A stretch of 64,000 nt of DNA, from positions 132,548,047 through 132,612,046 of the forward strand of contig OZ023269.1 of the NCBI GenBank assembly GCA_964006375.1, in the 5' to 3' direction. This DNA is from Tillus elongatus. Lineage: Eukaryota > Arthropoda > Insecta > Coleoptera > Cleridae. The position numbers and the translations under genes were made by a program. The notes beneath the pieces are model-generated. The model saw only the letters and a program-made list of their open reading frames with translations, did not search any database and had not been told where the DNA came from. Shown in pieces: positions 3,751 through 63,014 of the stretch (positions are counted from its first letter, which is position 1; each line of letters opens with the position of its first letter).

Positions 3751-4327
3751 AGTATCAATGTATTAAAAATAGAGGTGTGCGAAGCTTGATATTTCGAACC
3801 GAACCTACTGTTCGAAAAATTGTACGCGCCGATGATGTGAAAGTAGTTCGAAATACGTAATTCTCCAAAGTAGTTCGAAGTTCATTGTCCAAAAATACTT
3901 CAAAATTGAACATTGCAGGCATTGAGAGTTGCCAAAGATAGCGAAGTTGTAACCCTGTAGCGGCGCTTTAAATTCTGTGTCGGCCCCATTGAGTTGGTAG
4001 CATAATTTGAGTAGATTTCACTAATGCGTGTTTTTGACAGTTGGTGGGACACATTGCGAGACCTGACAGCCATTCAACAATCACAATCACATATTTTTTT
4101 ATATATCCTAGCATCCCAGCACCTTCTTTGGTTACAACATTATGATGGCAATGTTCAAAGCAATTGGTAATGTAATTTTCCAGAATTTATGACCATAATT
4201 GCATATTGCCTTCCGGAAATACTATGTTGAACATGCTTTATTTCACAATGAGCCAAAACAAAATTAAATATTCTCAATCAATACACATTAAAATTTCAAA
4301 TGGTTATTATATTACTTAGTGTCATAG

Positions 4328-4372
4328 AACCGCAGGCGGGTTTCAATCTAATTAGAGCTCATCAGTACGGTA
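4328..4372 (-). ncRNA. Decayed hammerhead motif (minus strand)
   Basis: On the minus strand the order CUGAUGA (4359-4365), stem II with AAUU loop, then GAAAC is kept. Stem III reads ACCCGC, losing the U that precedes the cleavage base, and stem II has mismatches. Probably inactive. Confidence 0.5.
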
Positions 4373-4569
4373 TACTCATTAAATCGAGAACACACCTATA
4401 AAGTAATATGCCTATGGTAGCCAGCCTAGAATATTGTGAGATGTACGACAGGGTCTCGGTGCAGATCCAGGTAGTATATTGTCATGACAGCTCCAAATAA
4501 CACAAAATAAAATAAAAAATAGAAACTGTGTAAAACCAAGTAACAATGTTGTAAATTGTCAGCGCTAGT

Positions 4570-4614
4570 AACCGTACTGATGAGTTCTAATTAGAACGAA
4601 ACCGGTCTGTGGTT
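4570..4614 (+). ncRNA. Type I hammerhead ribozyme motif, intact core
   Basis: Stem I pairs 4570-4576 (AACCGUA) with 4608-4614 (UGUGGUU), seven pairs including two G-U. The core CUGAUGA is 4577-4583. Stem II is GUUCU / AGAAC around an AAUU loop (4584-4597), perfectly paired. GAAA is 4598-4601. Stem III is the self-complementary ACCGGU (4601-4606), and the predicted cleavage follows C4607 of GUC. All invariant core bases are present. The extremely short stem III suggests activity as a dimer or in a tandem transcript, as described for Penelope-like elements and retrozymes. Self-cleavage is inferred, not shown. Confidence 0.75.
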
Positions 4615-4706
4615 CTAATTATGGTGAAAATACATCTAGCCTTACATACATTGTCCCTATATTCAGGAAGAAATGGGCTAGGGCTGACAATTTACAAAAT
4701 TGTTAC

Positions 4707-5135
4707 AGGGTTCCCACTAAAAGCAGTATATCAACTTCCCTGACTTTTCCCGAATTTCCCCGACATGCCAAAACATATTTCCCTGACTTTGTATTCTACA
4801 ATCTAACCCCAACATGTGTAACACACCACTACAGGTTACAGTAGATCTTTGCCTCATGGCGTAAAACACTTCCCCAAAATTACATGTATAAAATATACAC
4901 AATTTTCCTGACAAATAAACGAAAACGTTTCTTATACAAATATGCACCAATCATTGTGTTTTAATTATTTATCATAAAACGGAAATAAATAATTTTTCCC
5001 TTACACAGACAAAAATTCCCTGACTCTTGGTCTTTTTTCACAATTTTCCCCTGATTTCCCTGACAAAATTTTACCTTCCACAAATTCTATAACTTTTTCC
5101 GGTTTTCCCTGTTTTCCAGACGAGTGGGAACCCTG
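4707..5135. mobile_element. 429-bp MITE nested in the ribozyme repeat, 5-bp target duplication
   Basis: The ends are perfect inverted repeats, CAGGGTTCCCACT and AGTGGGAACCCTG. The interior repeats short TTCCCTGACTTT-like blocks and has no coding frame. TGTTA occurs on both sides (4702-4706 and 5136-5140). The uninterrupted homologue near 39735 reads through with one copy of this pentamer, so the insertion boundary is directly visible. The ends look hAT-like, but a 5-bp duplication is short for hAT. Confidence 0.75.
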
Positions 5136-5312
5136 TGTTAGTTGGTTGTACAGTCTTATTTTATAACATTTTGTGTTATTTGGAGCTGTCGTGAAAACAT
5201 ACTACCTGTTTCCGCACCAAGATGGTGACCCTGTCGTACATTTCCCAATGTTCTAGGAGGCTGGCTACCACAGCTGTATTACTTTATAGGTGTGTTCTCG
5301 CTGTAATTAGTA

Positions 5313-5357
5313 TACTGTACTGATGAGCTTTAATTAGAGCGAAACCGGTTTGTGTTT
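5313..5357 (+). ncRNA. Type I hammerhead ribozyme motif, second copy
   Basis: CUGAUGA at 5320-5326, stem II GCUUU/AGAGC with an AAUU loop (5327-5340), GAAA at 5341-5344, and stem III ACCGGU at 5344-5349. The cleavage triplet is GUU rather than GUC. Stem I is weaker than in the first copy (one C-U mismatch, several G-U pairs). The core is complete, but activity should be lower. Confidence 0.6.
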
Positions 5358-5877
5358 CTAATTAAGGTGAGAATACATTTAGCCTTACTATCATACTCAA
5401 GTTTAACCCTGTCGATCTATAAGACTGTTAAAACTACCTAGATAATACCAAACGACAGAAAGTATATATAACTGAGCTTAGGTATAGATATAGAAATCTA
5501 AAATGATTTTCAATACACCTTTTTGTGTTTTTGATTCAATGTTGACCCATCTTCACAAGTAACATCAGCACCGGAAGGCATTTTCATCCAGTCAAACTGC
5601 AAATTTTGTCAAACCTTTGCTTTTTGCAAAAAGAATAGATATCTTCTACATACTAAATATCGTATCCTATAATATACCTAAATTTTCTATTTAAGGAAAT
5701 GATATATGAACACTGAAGAATTTCGGTTAATTTGGTATATGGTTTTGAATTTTTAGGAAGTTCGAGTGTGAACCTTAGACATGCTATTTCAAAGGTTCGA
5801 AATTTAAAGCAACATATTTGCTTCGGTTTGTGCAAAAGTCACTTCGAGAAAAACATGGATTCGCACACCTCTGATTA

Positions 5878-7205
5878 AAAGAAACATACTGTATGTAGCT
5901 TCACAATGGAACAAGTTTATTACATTAAAATGAGACATACCATATGCAACTTCACAGTGATACAAGTTAATTACACTGTAAAGCTTTGTTTCTCTTAGTT
6001 TACTCTGGTATTGATGTATTAAAAGAAACATACTGTACATAGCTTCACAATGGAACAAGTTTATTATATTAAAATGAAACATGCCCTATGAAACTTCACA
6101 GTGATACAAGTTAATTACACTATAAAGCTTTGTTTCTGTTAGTTTACTGTGGTATCGATGTATTAAAAGGGACATACCGTATGTAGCTTCACAATGAAAC
6201 AAGTTTATTATATTAAAATGGAACATACCATACGCAACTTCACAGTGAAACAAGTTTATTATGTTAAAATGAAACATACCATACGCAACTTCACAGTGAA
6301 ACTAGTTAATTACACTATAAAGCTTTATTTTTGTTAGTTTACTGTGGTATCGATGTATTAAAAGAAACATACCCTATGTAGCTTCACAATGAACCGAGTT
6401 TATTATATTAAAATGAAACATGCCCTATGCAACTTCACAGTGATACAAGCTAATTGCACTATTACGGTTTGTTTCTGTTAGTTTGATGTGTTATCGATGT
6501 ATTAAAAGAAACATACCATATGTAGCTTCACAATGGAACAAGTTTATTACATTAAAATGAAACATACCATATGCAACTCCATAGTGATACAAGTTAATTA
6601 CACTATAAAGCTTTGTTTCTGTTAGTTGGTATTGATGTATTAAAAGAAACATACCCTATGCAACTTCACAGTGATACAAGTTAATTACACTATAAAGCTT
6701 TGTTTCTGTTAGTTTACTGTGGTATCGATGTATTAAAAGAAACATACCATATATAGTAGCTTCACATTGGAACAAGCTTATTACGTTAAAATGAAACATA
6801 CCATATGCAACTTCATAGTGAAAAAAGTTAATTGTGCTATCAAGCTTTGTTTCTGTTAGTGTACTGTGGTATCGATGTATTAAAAGAAACATAACATATG
6901 TAGCTTCACAATGGAACAAGCTTATTACGTTAAAATGAAACATATATGCAACTTCATAGTGAAACAAGTTAATTGCGCTATCCAGCTTTGTTTCTGTTAG
7001 TGTACTGTGGTATCGATGTATTAAAAGAAACATAACATATGTAGCTTCACAAAGGAACAAGCTTATTACGTTAAAGTTGAAACATATCATATGCAACTTC
7101 ATAGTGAAACAAGTTAATTGCACTATCAAGCTTTGTTTCTGTTAGTTTGCTGTGGTATCGATTTATTAAAAGAAACATACCCTATGTAACTTCACAATGG
7201 AACAA
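5878..7205. repeat. Tandem repeat array (about 140-190 bp units)
   Basis: About nine copies of a unit containing GGTATCGATGTATTAAAAG, AAACATACC, TAGCTTCACAATGGAACAAG, CAACTTCACAGTGATACAAG and CTTTGTTTCTGTTAGT. Starts of the ATGTATTAAAAG block fall near 6012, 6152, 6342, 6494, 6630, 6726, 6870, 7010 and 7154, so unit length varies. Open frames here on the minus strand are by-products of the repeat. The CTTCACAATGGAACAAGTTA block at the right end recurs in the 351-bp satellite at 10.4-11.1 kb. Confidence 0.85.
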
Positions 7206-7444
7206 GTTAATCGTTAACAGATTAACTCACTAACAAAGCCTGTTTTCAAGGGACCAGATGGCATACAGATTAGTCCGTTATTATTATAGATCATCGCTTA
7301 CAGCACCAACTTTTGTTTAAATATCGTTTATAGGTTTTACCTCACATAGAAGAAATAGGTGCATTTTTGCAAATACCCTAGCTTATGTGAGACTCGTGGT
7401 AACATCATCATAGTCTGTGTGCTCATCAAACATTATTTTCTGCG

Positions 7445-8506
7445 AAAAAAAAAATTACTCAAACCAAGGCTAAGCTTGATAAATACTATGGGGACTCTGC
7501 ACCATCAGTTTCCACGGTAAAAAAGTGGTTATTGAATTTCGTTGCAGTCATACAAGCACAAAAGACGCGGAACGTCCTGGATGCCCAGTTGAGGTCGCTA
7601 CACCCGAAATAATTGAAAAAATTCACGATATGGTGTTAGCCGATCGAAGATTGAAAGTGTGGGAGATTGTAGAAGCCATAGGCATATCACATGGCTCAGT
7701 TGTTTCGATTTTGCATGATCACTTGAGTATGAGAAAGCTATCCGCAAGATGGGTGCCACGTTTGCTCACAATCGACCACAAACGCAATCGTGTCACAACT
7801 TCGAAGGAGTGTTTGGCGTTGTTCAACTGCAATAGGGACGAGTTTTTGCGCCATTTCGTAACCGTGGACAAAACGTGGATTCACCACAACACACCAGAGA
7901 CCAAGCAGTAATCAAAACAGTGGGTTTCTCCGTGCGAATCGGTGCCGAAGAAGGCCAAGGTGGGTTTGTCAGCCAATAAAGTCATGGCGACCGTTTTTTG
8001 GAATGCACATGGTATAATCCACATTGATTACGTTTAAAAGGGAAGAACAATCAATGGCGAATGTTATACCAACTAATTAGACCGATTCTATGACGATTTG
8101 AAGAAAAAACGACCACATTTGGCCAAGAAAAAAGTTCTTTTTCACCAAGACAATGCAAGCGTGCACACGTGTGTAGTCTCCATGGCGAAATTGCATAAAT
8201 TGGGCTACGAATTGCTCCCTCATCCGCCGTATCCTCCGGATTTAGCCCCGAGTGACTATTTCTTGTTTCCAAACTTAATAAAATGGCTCAGCGGAAAGAG
8301 ATTTTTACTCGAATGATGAAATCATCTCATAAACAAATACCTATTTTGAGGACCTCGACAAATCTTATTTTTTAGAAGGGATAAAAAATTGGAGAAACGT
8401 TGGAGGAAGTTATAGAGCTTAAAGGAGACTATGTTGAGAAATAAAATTATTTTTTGCCAAAAAACCTGTGTTTCATTCAAAAAGCCACGGTCTTATTGAC
8501 CCGCCC

Positions 8507-8730: not shown

Positions 8731-8844
8731 CAAGTAAATACTGGAAGGTTATGTTAAATTTTAATTAAATTCCCTTTTTTTTTGCAACATTCAGTATCAG
8801 GTGGTAACAAAAAACATATTAATATACAAAATAGTTCAGTGAGT

Positions 8845-8965
8845 GAAGGTTGTAACCTGTGATGAACACTGATTAGTACAATTTGGAGAACCCAATTCAC
8901 CACAATACAGTTTTCAGATTTGACAATCGTTTCGCTAACAAAGTCAGCATCATCAGATAGTAAGT
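8845..8965 (+). repeat. Dispersed repeat with CACCACAA and TTTCGCTAAC blocks
   Basis: AACCTGTGATGAACACTGAT, TTGGAGAACCCAATTCACCA and ATCGTTTCGCTAACAAAG recur at 36480-36515 and 36900-36975 and, in part, at the 23264-23370 palindrome. It is a short interspersed family of unknown class. Confidence 0.45.
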
Positions 8966-10070: not shown

Positions 10071-10124
10071 AAGTATTCCGTTGTGTTTGTTTTGGACTAA
10101 TATCGTCGAAATAAATACGAAACC

Positions 10125-11240
10125 GAATAGAGTACCAGAAATTGAAAAAAGCATGATGTAACTGAAATATGCCGCACAGTCTAAGGATTATATTTCACTA
10201 GCACGGTCACAGTATTTCTGTACAAGGTAAAATTGGTCCAATTTTTAAAGGTCTGGGATAAGCTTTCCTGTCTCGCTTATGCCCTTCAATTCGAAGCATG
10301 GGCTGTAGAACATTATGATCACATTCATTATCTGGTAATGAGTAACGAATCATTATCATCTGACTGGATTTGAAAGAAACATACCGTATGGAGCTTCACA
10401 ATGGAACAAGTTAATCATTAACAGATTAACTGACTAACAAAGCCTGTTTTTCAGAGACCATATGGCATACAGGTTAGTCCGAATGGAGTACCAGAAATTG
10501 AAAAAAGCATGATGTAACTGAAATATGCCGCACAGTCTAAGGATCATATTCCACTAGCACGGTCACTGTATTTCAAGGTAAAAGTGGTCCAATTTTTAAA
10601 GGTCTGGGATAAGCTTTCCTGTCTCGCTTATGCCCTTCAATTCGAAGCATGGGCTGTAGAACATTATGATCACATTCATTATCTGGTAATGAGTAACGAA
10701 TCATTATCATCTGACTGGATTTGAAAGAAACATACCGTATGGAGCTTCACAATGGAACAAGTTAATCATTAACAGATTAACTCACTAACAAAGCCTGTTT
10801 TCCAGAGACCATATGGCATACAGGTTAGTCCGAATGGAGTACCAGAAATTGAAAAAAGCATGATGTAACTGAAATATGCCGCACAGTCTAAGGATCATAT
10901 TTCACTAGCACGGTCACTGTATTTCAAGGTAAAAGTGGTCCAATTTTTAAAGGTCTGGGATAAGCTTTCCTGTCTCGCTTATGCCCTTCAATTCGAAGCA
11001 TGGGCTGTAGAACATTATGATCACATTCATTATCTGGTAATGAGTAACGAATCATTATCATCTGACTGGATTTGAAAGAAACATACCGTATGGAGCTTCA
11101 CAATGGAACAAGTTAATCATTAACAGATTAACTGACTAACAAAGCCTGTTTTTCAGAGACCATATGGCATACAGGTTAGTCCGAATGGAGTACCAGAAAT
11201 TGAAAAAAGCATGATGTAACTGAAATAATGCAGCACAGTC
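10125..11240. repeat. 351-bp satellite, three copies
   Basis: The block AGTACCAGAAATTGAAAAAA starts at 10131, 10487, 10838 and 11189, giving periods of 356, 351 and 351 bp with nearly identical units. Each unit carries GGAGCTTCACAATGGAACAA, which also closes the array at 5.9-7.2 kb, so the two arrays are related. No coding content. Confidence 0.9.
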
Positions 11241-11387
11241 TAAGGATTATTTTCCACTATCAGGGTCACACGTTGGTTGTTGCGTTTATTTCTTTTTTGT
11301 ATGGATTTTTCGTTTTCACTGGCGATTTAAGAATATTTATTTATTGAAAATATTAATTAACTGGACTGTCAGAGTGGTGTTATGAAA

Positions 11388-15309: not shown

Positions 15310-15808
15310 TCACATAACCTGTAAAATTTGACTTGCTTCGAAAGCTGTTCCAGGCAGTAGAATAACAGGACTTGAAACATGTCCTGCTTCAACACAAACC
15401 ATATTTGGAAATTCATCATCTCCAAAATCAGACATTTCCTTAGCTTGTTCAATCCAAGGATTCCAAATCACAGTATCAGGAAAATTGTACTTCTGAATAC
15501 GCATCTTCCTACCAGAAACGACATTAGTGATGATGTGTTCTTGGGGAGTGTTTTGGTATACACGATCAGTCCATTCGGTTACAGTCACGATGTCTCTACC
15601 ATCCTGGTAGACGGCACCATCTCTTGTTTTGTCCATGAAGGTGCAACCTTGGAGACCAGTTATTTGACAACGTCTTACATCAGGAACTTTGAAGTAAGTA
15701 TGTAAAAGTAAATGAAAGCTGAATGTTAAGTCTTTACTTGGATTGTAAACAGCTATGTTAAAATGCAGCTCTTTCTCTCTTAGGATTAATCTGTATGTTA
15801 ACCGAAAC
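15310..15808 (-). CDS. Epimerase exon 5 (stop codon)
   Basis: 499 nt encoding residues 112-277, from FRLTYRLILREKELHF to EASQILQVM and TGA. It contains the catalytic His148 (HTYF) and Glu252 (CVEAGH). The acceptor is TTTTTCAG at 15809 onward. The internal ATG of the 108-codon open frame is not a start. Confidence 0.95.
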
Positions 15809-18800
15809 CTGAAAAATAACCATAATTTAAAATATACTAACCAAACAAATTTTGATACAATGGTAACAAGAACTTCGCGGTGCTATCGGGGCGGCAAGGC
15901 CGCGGACGAGCCCTGAGGGAACAAAAAAAAACAAGAATTTTTCTGTAATTTGGAAAGGTCATTCTATTGTATAAGCCAGTGATTCCCAAAGTGTGCGCCG
16001 CAGCCTCTTATCAGAGGCTCCGCAAAATATTGCAAAAGCTTCAATTAATTAATTAGACATTCTAGACATTAGACCAAGACATAGGTTCCCTTAAAACATC
16101 CACCGGAGGCTTTAAAAGCTCAGGGGAGGAAACTATGAAAGTTTTACTACAGACGCATTTCCCTGGATGCAACATAATAAACCAATCACCTCCAAGCTGG
16201 GGACACTCAGAAATAAAGGCGCTGTATAGGCGGACATCTAGAGTAGACTGGACAGTTCCTAAAGAGGTGGTTACTTGGAGCAATTCAGATGGGCCATTAA
16301 CAGCTTCAAGCAATTCAAATCCCCGGGATTAGATGGAATAATGCCCATCATGCTCCAACAGGGTATACACCTACTGGCGGTGGCGCTTACCCTCATTATG
16401 AGCGCCAGCCTGGCTCTGGGGTACATTCCGATGGCATAAAGACTGGCCAGGGTTGTATTCATTCCTAAACCTGGGCGTCCAATAGACCAGGCAAAGTCCC
16501 TGAGGCCAATATGTCTTATGTCCTTCTTGCTAAAAACAATGGAAAAACTGCTAGACCGGCACATTAGGGGCAGTGTACTGGAAGCTAATCCTCTACACTG
16601 CGGACAATTCGCATACAAAGCAGGAGTCTCAATAGAAACAGCACTTCAGCAACTGGTGCTGAAACTGGAGAATACGCTGGAAAACAGGGAGGTAGCGCTG
16701 GGGGCCTTCCTAGACATAGAAGGGACCTTCAGCAACACCTCATTCGGATCGGTACTGGCAGCTGCCATGGAGCGGGGAATAGGGAAGACCTGTCGCAGGT
16801 GGATGTGTTCCATGCTCAGGGACAGGGCGGTGTTTAGCTCACTCGCGGGGGGGACTCTGCTGGCAGGGGTCGCGGCTGGGTGCCCGCAGGGGAGCGTTTT
16901 GTGGGTGGTCGCGAGAAAGCCACCGTTATACCATTTACGAGGAGGAAGTGGGAGGGCCACTGAACTCACTCTATATGGTAGAAACATCCCGATGGCCACG
17001 GAGGTGAAATATCTTGTGGTCGTATTGGACTCTAAGCTAACCTGGAATAGCCGCGTTGAAAAAATACTGTGCAAGGCAGTTATGACCCTAGCCATCACTA
17101 GGCAGCTATATGGAAAAACGTGGGGACTATGACCTAGTATGGCCCATTGGCTGTACACAAGGGTGGTCAGACCATCGTTAACATACGTGGCACTGGTTTG
17201 GTGCCCTAAGGTGACACAATCCAGTGCCAAACAAAAACTGAGCAAGATCTAAAGGATGGCTTGCCTAGGCATCACAGGGGCCATGTCTTCAACCCCAACA
17301 GCCGCCATGGAGGTGTTGCTGGATCTACCCCCCCTACACTTAGTTATTATGGGAGAGGCCAGGCTAGGACTATACAGACTAGCCTGCAATGATAGATTGA
17401 AGGCCAACCCAGGCTGCAGGGGCCACTTCAAGATTCAGGAGATCGTGAAGGAGCCCATGCTTGAAATAAGGCCAGACTTCTTGAGCCCGCGAATCTGTAG
17501 GGAAAATAAGTTTACAGTGGTAGTCCCCGACCGCGAGTCATGGCGGGGGGAGATGCCGGGTCTACCACGGGACGCGCTCGTCTGGTTCACGGACGGATCC
17601 GGCGAGGAGCGTGGGACGGGGGCAGGTGTTTATTCGTAAGGACCGAGGGTAAGTCACAGTGTTTCCCTCGGGGCTCATGCAACGGTCTTCCAGGCTGAAA
17701 TGTACGCAATCTTGCACCGTGTGCGAGAGAACAAGAGGAGGGGCTACACCAACAAGCGGATCCTCATAGCCACAGACAGCCCTTAAGGTATTAAGTAGCC
17801 CAAGGGTAAATTCCTGGCTGGTAAGTGAGTGCCAAGACGAGATGAGCGCCCTAGCTGGGAAGAATGAGGTCATCCTCATCTGGGTGCCGGGTTACTCGGG
17901 GGCCAAAGGCAATGAAGAAGCTGTCTCGCAAAGAAAGGGTCAGCAGAACCATTTATGGGACCAGAACTGGCTCTGGGCGTGACAAAGAGCACTGCCAGGG
18001 GAGTCAATAAGTCCTGGGTCAGAAACCAACACAAGGTGTAGTGGGCAGACTGTCCAGGGCTCCGACATGGGAAGTCGGTAATTGACGAACCCAGTTCAAA
18101 GAGAGCTGTGAAGCTGCTAAATCTTAGCAAAGGACAGCTCAGAAACATAACAGGTCTCTTGACGGGACACATTGCTGTCAAGAACCACCTGGCATGCAGA
18201 CTCTGCGGCGAGGGGGGAGGAATCAGCCCAGCACATCTTGTGCGAGTGTATAGCTCTGGACCGGAAAAGACAACTGATCTACGGTCAGTCTAGACCGGAG
18301 ACAGAGCAATATAAAACTTCACCCTACCAATTGCTGTGCAGACTAGTACAAGGCACTGCGGTGCTATCGGGGCGGCAAGGCCGCGGACGAGCCCTGAGGG
18401 AACAAAAAAAAAAAAAAAAAGTACAAGGCACAGTGATTTTGGAATGGTTGGAGTGTAAAAGACTAAGGGCATGCACAATAAGCCAAAGGCTGCAGTGCTA
18501 TCGGGGCGGCAAAGACGCGGACAAGCCCTAAGGGAAAAAAAAAAGTCTGAGTCAGTTTTTTTCAGACAATGGCATCATATTATATGCATTACCTACCTGC
18601 AAACACTACACATATAATGCAGCCGGCTGATGTCAACGCATTCAAGCCATTTAAGTCCCAATGGAAAGAAACTATGCGAGAGTAGCAAACTGGCACTGAG
18701 AATACAAATGAAGTTTTGACAAGGGCAAAAATTTTTCCACTAGTAAAGCAGGTTTCGGAAAACCACGATATGTCTGTAAGTATAATAAACAGATTCAGAA

Positions 18801-21800: not shown

Positions 21801-24800
21801 CAAACCTTATACAGAAACCTGGAAAAAATCATCTATGGCAAAAGGACCATGTTGTATATCATCAATTGGTTGGCAAAATTTTGAGTTACAAAAAGAACCA
21901 GAAAAGCAAGCGAAATTAGATGAAAGAAAAAAGAAGAAAGATGAGCTAATAAAACAAAGAAAAACGAAAGCAAGTAGACGTTTTAAGGGCAAATAAGAAA
22001 AGAAAAGAAAGAAGTGCAGGCAACACAGAAGGTCGAAGAAAGAAATTCAAGGCAGGATATAAATTTGCGTCACTGTAATTAAGTTTGAGATAATAAAAAT
22101 AAGAATAAAATGTTCTGCATGTGAAGATGAATTGGTTACCGAAACAGAGGAAAATGACTTGAAGAGTATAGGTTGTAATAGTTGTCCTTCCTGGTATCAC
22201 TTAAAAATGTACAACTTTTCAAGGACAATTATATGAAAATATTATTAATTCCGAGTTTACTTGTTCCAAACGTGGTTAGATCCAGATTAGTTACATTTAA
22301 ATATTTTTTTGTTTTTTAACGTTTCTTTATGCTTGTAATACTATTGTCTATCCATATTTTACCTAATGGTTGGATAAGCCAAGAAAATCAGAGTCCGCTT
22401 TTTTACTTTTTGGCCAGCCAAGAACTGATATTTTTTCCCCTTAGGGTTCGTCCGTGTCTTTGTCGCCCCCGATAGCACCGCAGCCTTTGGCTTATTGTGC
22501 ATGGAGAACTGGTATACAAACGACTGAATACTAAATTTTAGTGGGCGACTTCTGGTGAAATTGACTAGGTTGTCATTTAAAGCGTTTTTCTAAGTAACGG
22601 GACTTGTGTGTTAATTCCGTACATTTTCATTCAAATTAAAGATGTAGCAACATCAAATACATTTCCCGATATTCTAAAAAATACAATAACTAGCAATAGG
22701 CAATTGTAATATAGAACTCTCCTAAAGTAGCCGACTACTAATATTTTTACCCCACATAGAACACTTCATTCCGCTGTGTAGTTTGCCTAAACATATTGAT
22801 AAAAAATAAATACTAAACATGTTGGAAACCCGTAAATAAACGTAAACTTACAACTAAAAATATAACTTACGGATAATTCCACATTGAGCGAGTAAATTCT
22901 GAATCCATTAATGAGAAAATTGCTTCGACGTCTCCACTAGCTAATCGTTCAGGAGCCTTCTCTAAGTTCCAACGGATGATACGAGCAAAACCATGCTGAG
23001 GACCAAATGCCCATGGTCCAAATTGAGCTAGAAAATAAACGCAAAATAAACAGATAAGTATATACAAGTATTATCCCAAAAAATACAACGGTTTTAAAAC
23101 TTCATGAGTACGATTGGGAGGGCGATTCTTTGCTGCTTTTTATAGTAGTCTATACCGAGAGCCACACTCTCCAGCTGAATCATCAAGGAGTCATTTCCAT
23201 TGTGAAAGAGACCCATACCGCACATCGTTGCAGAATTGAGATGTCGTGTATCGAAAGACAGCGATAAGTACACTTGGAGAACACCCAAATCACCACAACG
23301 TTGATTTGGGTGTTGTGGTGATTTGGGTGTTCTCCAAGTGTACTTATTAGTGCTCATCACAGGTTCCAGTTTTCACATAGTGAAAGACAGCGAATCAACC
23401 TTAAGTTTCTCCCGGAACTCTGAAAAAAAGGTGGGGGACTTTAGAGGATTTGCCATGAACGGTTGAAAAAGGTTTATGGAGATGATTCTCTGGAGGAACT
23501 GGCTGTCCGCAAGTGGTAAATGCAATTTCTAGAGGGCCTGGAGGGTGTGCTTCATGCTAAGGGTGCCCTTCCACTTTCTGTTATAGTGATAATGTGGAAC
23601 GAGTGCAATATTATTTTTTTCAAAGTCATCAGTTAACAGTTAAAATATTTGAAAATGAGCTGTATTTGAGCAAGAAAACAGCCAACAAAATTTTAACAAA
23701 AGATTTGGAGGTATTCAGAAATGTCATGTCGAGGGTTAAAAGCAAATAACCTAATAATGCCTAGTCGGGTTTACCCGGCGTCAACAGTTGAATAGTTTTG
23801 TCAACATTTGCTTTCACTGCTAAGTTTTTACTGGAACTCAAATGTTGTCAATTTGTCAAAGCGGAATGACAAACGTCAAAAAATAGTGCTTCAAGTCAAC
23901 AGTGCGTTCATCAGTCTCCAAGGAGTTAAATGTATTGGTAGTCAGCAGATAAGTGCTTAAACTCAGCTGTTGGCACCTGGTGAACTCAGCCAATGTCCAT
24001 AAATTTTAACTGCAGAAGTCAATTCGACAGATTGAAATACACAAGAAGGCAGTTTTTTTTATTATCCATTTATTAAAAGTAATTCAACTGAATCAAATCT
24101 TTGTCGATTCTTCACATAAATACTAATTTAAATTCCCTGTCAGTTATTGATTTAAAAAAATATATTTTTTTGTATTTCATAAACGTTTATTTACACCTGT
24201 GGCGTTATATTTGTTAAGTCCCCTGTGGGTCCGGAGACTAACTAAAAGAATAGGCCCAAGGTAACTCCTGCCTGTCGTAAAAGGCGACTAATTGGAATCA
24301 AACACTGGCGGGGTTCTTGTCCATGTGGGCCTGGAGGGAGGCGGATTTCTCTGGGGAGTGATGTACACCCGGATTTTTAGGCCTTCACTCTGGGCTTAGA
24401 AATGGATGGTTGCCCGCGCTTGGTTGTTACTCGGGAGTGGGGTTCCGGATGGGTGCCGCCTTGGGTTGAGTGCTGGCAGGTGTCGTGTGTCTAGACGACC
24501 CGGAGGGGGTTGACAACTCTGATGAGTGTTAAACACCCGGAGTTTGGGGCCCCCACTGTGTGCTACGGGATATCGCCTTGAGTCTAGCACTGGTGGGTGT
24601 CGGGTTTAGACGAACCCGGAGGAGAGCTGAGATCTTTAGGGGTGGAATAAAACTAAGGGTTGAGGCCTCTTCTGTGAGCTTCGAAACAGACAAACGACCT
24701 CACTTGGATGCTGCTCGGAGGCAGGACTTCATGATACTGCACCGAGTCAAACACTGACAGTACATCTGTCAAACAAAGTTTCACCTCGCAGGTGTCGTCT

Positions 24801-30959: not shown

Positions 30960-31194
30960 TTTCACCTCACTATTCTGGAAATGTTGCCAAATCCCTTCAT
31001 TTCTGTAAGAAGGGTAGGGATTTTTAACGCGCTCAACCTCGCATGATACACAGGACCTACGGATTACGCCCCCTATGAAGGGCAGAAAGTGAGCATATTT
31101 ACCTTGCTCAAACACAATGCTACAAATTCGATTGATGTTAATTTACAGTACTATGTAAAACTAAGTGAGAAGTTAGACACGAAATAAGTGCCGC

Positions 31195-31422
31195 CATCTC
31201 ATTGCGGAACCAAGTAGTATGTTGTCACGGCAGCTCCAAATAACACAGAATGCTAAAAACAGAGACTGTATACAACCAACTAACAATTTAGTAAATTGTG
31301 AGCCCTGGCCCATTTCTACCCCAATATAGGGACAAAGTATGTAAGGCTAGATGCATTATCACCACAATTAGAACTGTAGACCGGTTTCGATCTAATTAGA
31401 GCTCGTCACTACGGCATACATA
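31195..31422 (-). repeat. Ribozyme-repeat fragment (single unit)
   Basis: A minus-strand partial unit matching the 39-kb array (AGCTCCAAATAACACA, GGGACAAAGTATGTAAGGCT). Its hammerhead (about 31368-31418) reads GUGACGA in place of CUGAUGA, so the core is broken, though GAAAC and CGGUC persist. Confidence 0.65.
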
Positions 31423-37905: not shown

Positions 37906-39116
37906 TTGAGAGTTTAAAGTAAAATCGTTTTATAATAGGGTAATGACTGTTAAACATAATTTCCGGTCGTATTCGAAATATAAATCATTTTGCAGGTTAG
38001 ATTTAAGGTGATTTTTAGGACTAGTCAGTATATCAAATATTAAATATCATCCTCATAAATCATCACAGTCTTAAGTCAAGGCTGCATTGTCGTCACAACC
38101 CATGACTCAGTTTCAGGCAGTTCTATTCATTTTCTTGTAACTTCCGCACTACATCAAATTTTTAATTTAATTTGATTTTTTCTACTATATTTTGTTGATA
38201 AAATGTTGACTTTATATATGTTTTGGGGGATTTCTCGTTCTTTGTCAATTATTGCAATATTTTTGCTATGATTGTACTGATGGTTTGGTATGTTCTGTTG
38301 GGCAATAAATGCTAATATTATTAAAAGTTAACATAAGTCTTTACACTTATAGTTATGTGCTGGATGAGGGTTCGTGCTTTCACTGTGGTCCCAATAGGTT
38401 TTTAATTTTTCAACAGATTTTTGACAGTTTTCTGTGCAGCCTCGATGGTCCCAAAGTTATTGCGTTCGATTCTCAGCAGAAGCCTTAAATTATTTTTCAG
38501 TACATCTTGTAAATTAACATTAATCGATGTTGTAACAATTGTGTTTGAGCAAGTTGAGGGTCTGCACTTTCTGCCCTTCAGAAACTAGGCCGAGTTTTTC
38601 CTATTTTTAAGGCATCTAATTATTGCACCATAGTAATACCATGTTTCTTTCGTCATATTTTTGAGACCTGTCTCTTTCAAAGCATAATATTTCATATTAA
38701 GAACAAACTATTTGTAATTCAGCCTGTTTTTTCATCAGAAGGTCAACTATACTAACTTGCTCAGCTTAACACAATTTAATCTATGCTGACCATATCAAGA
38801 TTTTCTCGACAATTTTGGATGTCAATGATGTGCATTTGCAGAATAATCTAGAGGCTCTTGTGCGAGTGGTCTCTCACTAAATTTTGTGTAATGTCATTCA
38901 CAAGCAAGCATTTGCATTCAACTATAATTTATAGGGGAATGTGTTTACACCTCCTTCCATCATCAGGGGCCTCAAGCTTGTGTTCGATCCTATTTTTCTT
39001 TTTGGCCACATTATGAACACGTCACCTCATAAGAAACAGGAGTAATTTTTCTATGAAAAGGGTGTCAATTTTGTTACTATATCGCTGTAAGGCCAGATTT
39101 ATTCTCATCATAATTA

Positions 39117-39165
39117 AAATCGCAGAGCGGTTTCGCTCTAATTAGAGCTTGTCCGTATGGTATAC
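39117..39165 (-). ncRNA. Decayed hammerhead motif, array 2 unit 1
   Basis: Minus strand: CGGACAA replaces CUGAUGA; GAGCGAAACCGCUC follows. The core is damaged and it is probably inactive. Confidence 0.45.
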
Positions 39166-39427
39166 TAATTACAGCGAGAACACACCTATAAAGTAATACG
39201 GCTGTGGTAGCCAGTCTCCTAGAACATTGTGAGATGTAGGACAGGGTCACCATCTCGGTGCGGAACTATATAATATGTTGTCACAACAGCTCCAAATAAC
39301 ACAAAATGTTATGACATAGAGATCGTGTACAACTAACTAACAATTTTGTAAATTTTCTGCCCTGGCCCATTTCTTCCCTAATAAAGGGACAATGTATGTA
39401 AGGCTAGATGTATTCTCACCATAATTA

Positions 39428-39474
39428 GAACCGCAGGCCGGTTTACCTCTAATTAGAGCTCGTCAGTACGGTAT
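39428..39474 (-). ncRNA. Decayed hammerhead motif, array 2 unit 2
   Basis: Minus strand: CUGACGA (the variable core base is C, which is allowed), a perfect CUCU-AAUU-AGAG stem II, then UAAA in place of GAAA. One core base is lost; stem I (ACCGUA/UGCGGU) is intact. Confidence 0.55.
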
Positions 39475-39610
39475 ACTAATTACATCGAGAACACACCTAT
39501 AAAGTAATACTGCTATGGTAGCCTGCCTCTTAGGACATTGTGAGATGTGCGACATCGTAATCCTACTATAGCCGTATTACTTTATAGGTGTGTTCTCGCT
39601 TTAATTAGTA

Positions 39611-39656
39611 TACCGTACTGACGATCCCTAACTAGAGCAAAACCAGTCTGCGGTTC
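39611..39656 (+). ncRNA. Decayed hammerhead motif, array 2 unit 3
   Basis: Plus strand: stem I ACCGUA/UGCGGU is kept and CUGACGA is kept. Stem II is disrupted, AAAA replaces GAAA, and the cleavage triplet GUC is present. Likely inactive. Confidence 0.5.
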
Positions 39657-40199
39657 TAATTATGGTGATAATTTATCTAGCCTTACATATATTGTCCCTA
39701 TATTAGGGAAGAAAAAGGCCAGGGCTGACAATTTACTAAATTGTTAGTTGGTTGTACACAGTCTCTATTTTATAACATTTTGTGTTATTTGGAGCTGTTG
39801 TGACAACATATAAACTAGTTTCGCACCGAAATGGCGAACCTGTCGTATATCTCACAATGTTCTATATCGCTATCTTGTCAGATTCTATCTAGAATATGGT
39901 TCGGCTGTGTGGTTTCAAACTGATGGATCCATAATGCCAACCTTTGATCAGTTCGAGGGAAGTTTTTTAATTATCTTTGCAGCCATGAGAATGCTGGGTA
40001 CCCTTATGTGGAATTTCTGCAGGATAATATGCTGGATTGCTTCGACTTGCATCGCCTTGAGAGACATAGGAAGTGAAGTTCATTAATTCTTTTGTACAAA
40101 CTAATTAGCTCTATTTTGGATTACCCTACCTTGTAGATTGTTTAATGAGTCGTATAGGCCTTTGGCCGCTTAACACTGTTTTGTGCTTGACTCTATTTT

Positions 40200-47111: not shown

Positions 47112-63014
<15,903 letters not shown>

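Follow-up and report, generated by a model that had tools for sequence, protein, structure and literature searches.

The window, a 64,000-nucleotide stretch of the Tillus elongatus genome (contig OZ023269.1, positions 132,548,047 to 132,612,046), carries on its plus strand at 4571-4613 an intact-core type I hammerhead ribozyme with a GUC triplet and a predicted cut after 4607. Direct reading yields every element that the first-pass annotation had described at about 4570-4614: CUGAUGA, a stem II of GUUCU/AGAAC with an AAUU loop, GAAA, ACCGGU, GUC and a 7-bp stem I. A second hammerhead lies in the same insertion at 5314-5356 (+); its core is intact as had been claimed, although the triplet is GUU, not GUC, and thus still NUH. 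Both sites present the type I arrangement of CUGANGA, GAAA and NUH with stem I open. A loose core pattern, which recovers the 4571-4613 copy, matches at two sites in the 64-kb window (the other at 8922-8956 on the minus strand) where 0.09 are expected, and two matches were seen in 0 of 100 shuffles of the window. Comparison with the Rfam covariance models, proposed together with the annotation, gave a divided outcome: at gathering thresholds nothing in the whole window was matched, while a search of 3901-5900 in E-value mode hit both copies with Hammerhead_HH9 (25.7 bits, E 0.0014; 23.6 bits, E 0.0063), each below the gathering score of 52. Decayed copies do exist, though they number five rather than the four first counted, at 4329-4371 (-), 31373-31415 (-), 39119-39161 (-), 39430-39472 (-) and 39612-39654 (+).

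The ACCGGU segment is self-complementary and loop-less; a single molecule is thus unable to close stem III, which can form only between two copies, and the ribozyme should therefore cut only as a dimer. Weak helix III is described, in the available text of a 2020 review, as blocking monomer but not dimer cleavage in many type I hammerheads, and the minimal type I hammerheads of Penelope-like elements (PLEs) are said there to be possible dimer cleavers as well (PMC7761336).

The two intact cores had been taken for a plain head-to-tail pair; they instead belong to a single insertion at 4325-5391, which consists of two diverging arms and is split by a 430-bp transposon. The left arm (4325-4566, minus strand) contains the decayed hammerhead at 4329-4371, which had been assigned the same layout as the others and is in fact on the minus strand as part of this arm. 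The right arm (plus strand) runs from 4566 to 4705 and resumes from 5136 to 5391, the foreign element at 4706-5135 having 13-bp inverted ends (CAGGGTTCCCACT) and TGTTA on either side. Portions of this element resemble window 61620-62119 at 66-76% identity. The proposed repeat of about 310 bp, with about 309 bp net between cores, comes close: the unit consensus is 312 nt, and the 743 spacing falls to about 308 once the 430-bp element and a 5-bp duplication are removed.

For description of the insertion ends, numbering of the unit begins (u1) just past the outer end seen most often, which places the hammerhead cut after u273. Site S is defined as within 4 columns of u312 and site L as within 5 columns of u177; S thus lies 37-39 nt after the cut, and L follows about 176 nt later round the unit. 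The 4325-5391 insertion ends on the right at S and on the left near u283, which is neither S nor L, and has no clear flanking duplication. The clearest copy in the window is at 39.1-39.9 kb; its left arm (39086-39554, minus strand, 1.5 units, two decayed hammerheads) ends at S, its right arm (39563-39864, plus strand, with the decayed hammerhead 39612-39654) ends at L, and the target-site duplication CTATATCGCT stands on each flank at 39077-39086 and 39862-39871. A single-armed copy resembling subfamily B (31157-31419, minus strand) contains the decayed hammerhead 31373-31415 and has its outer end at L.

Searching the 1.72-Gb assembly with a 31-nt core and up to 3 mismatches returned 5454 places (2745 + 2709), and none for a reversed-pattern control. 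Loci were fetched through near-intact hammerhead matches in sets of 8, 40 and 26, so that the sample is hammerhead-selected; with L002 left out as a duplicate of the window, 73 loci and the window remained. The family comprises at least two subfamilies (A and B), and its tandem consensus has a G+C of 0.42 and a longest stop-free frame of 44 aa. As no frame exceeds this length, the unit does not encode the reverse transcriptase and GIY-YIG endonuclease of a PLE and is not classed as one. Arms longer than one unit account for 58 of 145 and reach three units and 1020 bp, which together with the core matches and the short frames upholds the earlier proposal of a non-coding retrozyme family of about 310 bp. 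A tandem unit of 150-450 bp (here 312 nt) with a type I hammerhead, low G+C, lack of coding capacity and target-site duplications that, where present, exceed 4 bp (here 10-14 bp, flanking 11 of the 20 insertions with one end at S and one at L) are all features of metazoan non-LTR retrozymes. The locus is thus supported as belonging to a non-LTR retrozyme family of metazoan type with a 312-nt non-coding unit; within this known class the family is new, and its two-armed S/L insertion structure is a variant.

Selection on the ribozyme core appears weak. Outside those hammerheads used to select loci the core is kept in 33 of 62, and divergence from the consensus is 8.9% of cells in the core (76/855) and 10.6% in the unit outside the hammerhead (1893/17815). 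The core thus seems hardly more conserved than the rest of the unit; conservation above the decay of the flanks, by which the first-pass annotation would be judged, goes in the favourable direction by a gap too small to be decisive. In 9 of 16 cases a unit has its nearest neighbour within its own arm, and some arms, though not all, accordingly look copied from a single template unit. Insertion flanks have an A+T of 0.678 compared with 0.644 in all fetched sequence, indicating no strong preference.

It is scarcely credible that the hammerhead merely sits within a satellite DNA or a DNA transposon. Some insect hammerheads do occur in satellites, such as pDo500 of Dolichopoda cave crickets (available sections of PMC2837043), and diverging arms resemble inverted ends; the copies here, however, are dispersed and short (median insertion span 491 bp, longest arm as above), their arms vary in length up to three units, and the outer ends usually fall at different unit positions rather than being inverted copies of one another.

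Mapping with eight reference units from both subfamilies resolved 86 insertions and 145 arms in 74 sources. Fifty of the 86 insertions are two-armed, and all 50 have the order minus, plus, so that the RNA-sense 3' ends face outward; the other 36 have arms on one strand only and no diverging pair. Outward ends are concentrated at two places, with 55 at S and 44 at L among 135 (99 in total, where 3.6 and 4.4, or 8 together, are expected), while inner ends show no clustering (3/135 at S and 8/135 at L). With the earlier windows, already set when the later loci were retrieved, the outward counts are 55 at S and 41 at L; the 26 later loci alone, scored in these pre-fixed windows, have 21 ends at S and 12 at L of 46, with 1.2 expected for each. 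This distribution, outward ends fixed and inner ends scattered, implies that copying starts at two fixed places within the RNA and stops at varied ones. An apparent third start site at u150-152 was an alignment artefact, since subfamily B differs at u150-180 and the cluster is gone with the eight reference units. At the cleavage site no end was found among 270 outward and inner ends, where 7.2 are expected; copying passes through the cut, which suggests that the template is not the linear monomer released by cleavage and is instead either circular or an uncleaved multimer.

The two start sites are paired within insertions. In 22 insertions both outer ends lie at S or L, and 20 of these combine S with L, with one SS and one LL (binomial 4.8e-5); the earlier windows give 19/21 unlike pairs, and the later loci alone 6/7 (P 0.042). 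In 27 of the 49 insertions with two outward ends, one end or both lie away from S and L. Flanking duplications with a score of at least 9 (10-14 bp, at most one mismatch) accompany 11 of the 20 S/L insertions, compared with 0.11 expected from mispaired flanks, and 9 of the 20 lack one; in the other 29 insertions, 3 have such a duplication (0.04 expected, likewise from mispaired flanks).

Inverted arms could also be produced if a single cDNA folded back and primed itself, as was proposed for inverted Penelope copies in rotifers in the available text of PMC3846280. Fold-back should join the arms at equal unit positions, and for the retrozyme it is very unlikely: arm junctions fall at the same unit position in 4 of 50 insertions (4.6 expected by chance), and self-priming is disfavoured because the other 46 join unrelated positions. 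Both outer ends are, moreover, start sites, and the duplication flanks the whole insertion.

PLEs are abundant in the same genome. A first look for GIY-YIG sequences gave 14,221 candidates, and all 150 that were scored matched; one locus (L049) carries RVT_1 (E 4.9e-13) and GIY-YIG (E 7.9e-07) in a single 637-aa frame, the combination that defines a PLE. A hammerhead-like motif lies 3' of this frame and recurs in a second copy (L050); Rfam recognised no hammerhead in these two copies at E up to 1, and the sequence that they have in common ends about 53 nt past the presumed cut of the motif. One 28-mer taken from the PLE tail has 240 exact matches in the genome (control 0). Within the window, an older PLE tail lies at 8843-8957 on the minus strand and includes a hammerhead-like motif of its own (8922-8956), and a pair of tails at 23263-23381 consists of a left arm with a short, S-type end (23263-23299, minus) and a right arm with a long, L-type end (23310-23381, plus), flanked by the 12-bp duplication GAAAGACAGCGA at 23253-23264 and 23382-23393.

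This two-armed arrangement is general among PLE tails. Among 100 places listed, at least 25 neighbouring tail pairs within 2.5 kb were counted by eye, and 25 of 25 diverge. Of these, 17 closely spaced pairs were read with a limit of 6 nt for a short end: 14 are short/long, two combine a long end with a 7-nt end that is just over the limit and are probably short/long, and one is long/long. Duplications with a score of at least 10 flank 15 of the 17 (0.19 expected), two of them in TA runs, where duplications carry little information. PLE insertions within long TA dinucleotide runs are seen at L087 and L090. Six further pairs come from the window and the retrozyme loci; five, including that at 23263-23381, are short/long with duplications, and in the sixth (L020) the long side continues beyond the L site and a duplication was not found.

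Retrozyme insertions therefore resemble resident PLEs in end structure and duplication length, two features expected of an element that is mobilised by PLE machinery. They differ in that L lies about 34 nt beyond S in PLEs and about 176 nt beyond it in the retrozyme. Overall similarity between the PLE tail and the retrozyme (Smith-Waterman) stays within that of shuffles and is not significant; short boxes common to PLE tails and subfamily-B units are TTGTGGTGAT, between the hammerhead and S (L038), and TCACTTAGT at L. The tie to PLEs that the first-pass annotation had drawn from the hammerhead is thus carried by the insertion signature common to both, whereas the PLE hammerhead differs in sequence.

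Mobilisation by a LINE-type enzyme, with the inverted arms arising through ordinary twin priming, was considered and is unlikely. Twin priming yields an inverted 5' part, and fragments of a LINE-type reverse transcriptase are present in the window (ORF 16440-17132, RVT_1); it should, however, start one arm at the RNA 3' end and the other at varied internal places, while here both outward ends lie at fixed sites and S is paired with L. The ends inspected have no common poly(A) tail, and a matching pattern is found in the PLEs of the same genome.

It is instead quite probable, judging from the ends and duplications, that a PLE protein copies retrozyme RNA from both target strands, once at S and once at L. 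Multimeric retrozyme transcripts would be cut by the hammerhead and closed into rings; the circular or multimeric RNA would then serve as template for a reverse transcriptase/endonuclease acting in trans, which we infer to be that of the resident PLEs. The enzyme would cut the two target strands at points offset by roughly 10-14 nt, and each 3' end so released would prime copying, one at S and the other at L, possibly within a single complex. The cDNAs would extend inward, sometimes through more than one round of the unit, halt at scattered places and be joined, leaving two diverging arms within a target-site duplication.

The PLE protein PAc of Anolis cuts both strands, extends both, and begins copying at internal positions (PMC11167929); the stretch between its two start sites corresponds to the genomic 'tail', and no start-site difference between strands was seen. 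For rotifer Penelopes, the available text of PMC3846280 describes inverted ends, one of which carries a 31-bp tail, together with duplications of 8-10 bp, and suggests self-priming. Neither of these two sources, in its available text, reports that unlike sites are paired in a single insertion; for PLE insertion, such pairing allows the inverted copies and the optional 'tail' to be read as two primed starts rather than as self-priming.

The circular fold of the retrozyme unit is predicted at -118.4 kcal/mol (z -9.4 against 100 mononucleotide shuffles). In the subfamily-A consensus, S and L are brought together by a predicted 5x5 loop with the ends on unpaired bases, an arrangement that 7 of 312 rotations do equally well; in the subfamily-B consensus a 5x5 loop uniting S and L is not predicted, and single copies are predicted to show the S/L loop in part (mean unpaired 0.57 and 0.55, compared with 0.35). 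Covariation across the whole fold is weak, with 12 pairs changing on both sides (11.6 in shuffles) and 27 cells changing on both sides (15.8 in shuffles; 1 of 500 shuffles); in the long outer stem I, one pair changes from U-A to C-G in 9 sequences. A broader model, to which we would give slightly less than an even chance, is that PLEs and their retrozyme parasites use two-ended target-primed reverse transcription in which a staggered cut exposes two 3' overhangs and a paired enzyme starts short on one cDNA and long on the other; since S and L are predicted to lie opposite each other in a single 5x5 internal loop of the subfamily-A circle, both halves of an enzyme dimer might work on one circle simultaneously.

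The family is most readily compared with the metazoan non-LTR retrozymes of Acropora, Mytilus and Ambystoma; in the available text of PMC7229834 these likewise have a type I hammerhead, a short non-coding tandem unit, low G+C, duplications of more than 4 bp and hammerhead-bearing PLEs in the same genome. In contrast to that description, the insertions here diverge in two arms that start at the fixed sites S and L, and stem III is loop-less; the word 'inverted' is absent from the main text of PMC7229834. Circles were demonstrated for those retrozymes and are predicted for the present family. With PLEs (Anolis PAc, PMC11167929; rotifer Penelopes, PMC3846280, both in their available text) it has in common inverted arms, short and long ('tail') ends, duplications of about 8-15 bp and a minimal type I hammerhead; unlike the retrozyme, PLEs encode a reverse transcriptase and a GIY-YIG endonuclease, and their hammerhead sequence and L distance also differ. 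The pDo500 satellite is similar in placing a hammerhead in an insect repeat but, from its description in the available text of PMC2837043, consists of roughly 500-bp satellite repeats making up about 5% of one species' genome, while the retrozyme family is dispersed. No description of the two-armed S/L structure was found in the open-licence literature searched. The 2020 review, in its available text, presents metazoan retrozymes as being without a conserved motif that would reveal an autonomous partner, and names PLEs as likely partners from shared hammerheads and co-occurrence (PMC7761336). The S/L end signature is evidence on that partner; any genome assembly can be scored for it, so that the question becomes directly testable.

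An apparent chimera of retrozyme and PLE is present as a single case (L032). Its minus arm runs from retrozyme S to u99 and continues into PLE coding sequence (aa 594 back to 553), where it meets a plus-strand PLE arm; on the far side of the retrozyme part there is no significant PLE match. Template switching from one of the two RNAs to the other within one insertion would be the simplest account of the junction, a less simple alternative being a nested insertion with a deletion. The fused region spans 2573-2907 of this locus. At another locus (L013) the retrozyme insertion adjoins a PLE end.

Other features of the window include an open frame at 7483-7911 (plus strand) with no Pfam match, which we take to resemble a piece of a mariner transposase, and two tandem arrays, one of about nine copies of ~144-bp units at 5874-7221 and one of 3.3 copies of 351-bp units with 97% matches at 10123-11269. 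On the minus strand, an aldose-1-epimerase-like exon lies at 15310-15882, its named homologues being from arthropods and mostly insects, and probable exons of an SLC12 cation-chloride cotransporter lie at 55434-55922 and 58216-58767.
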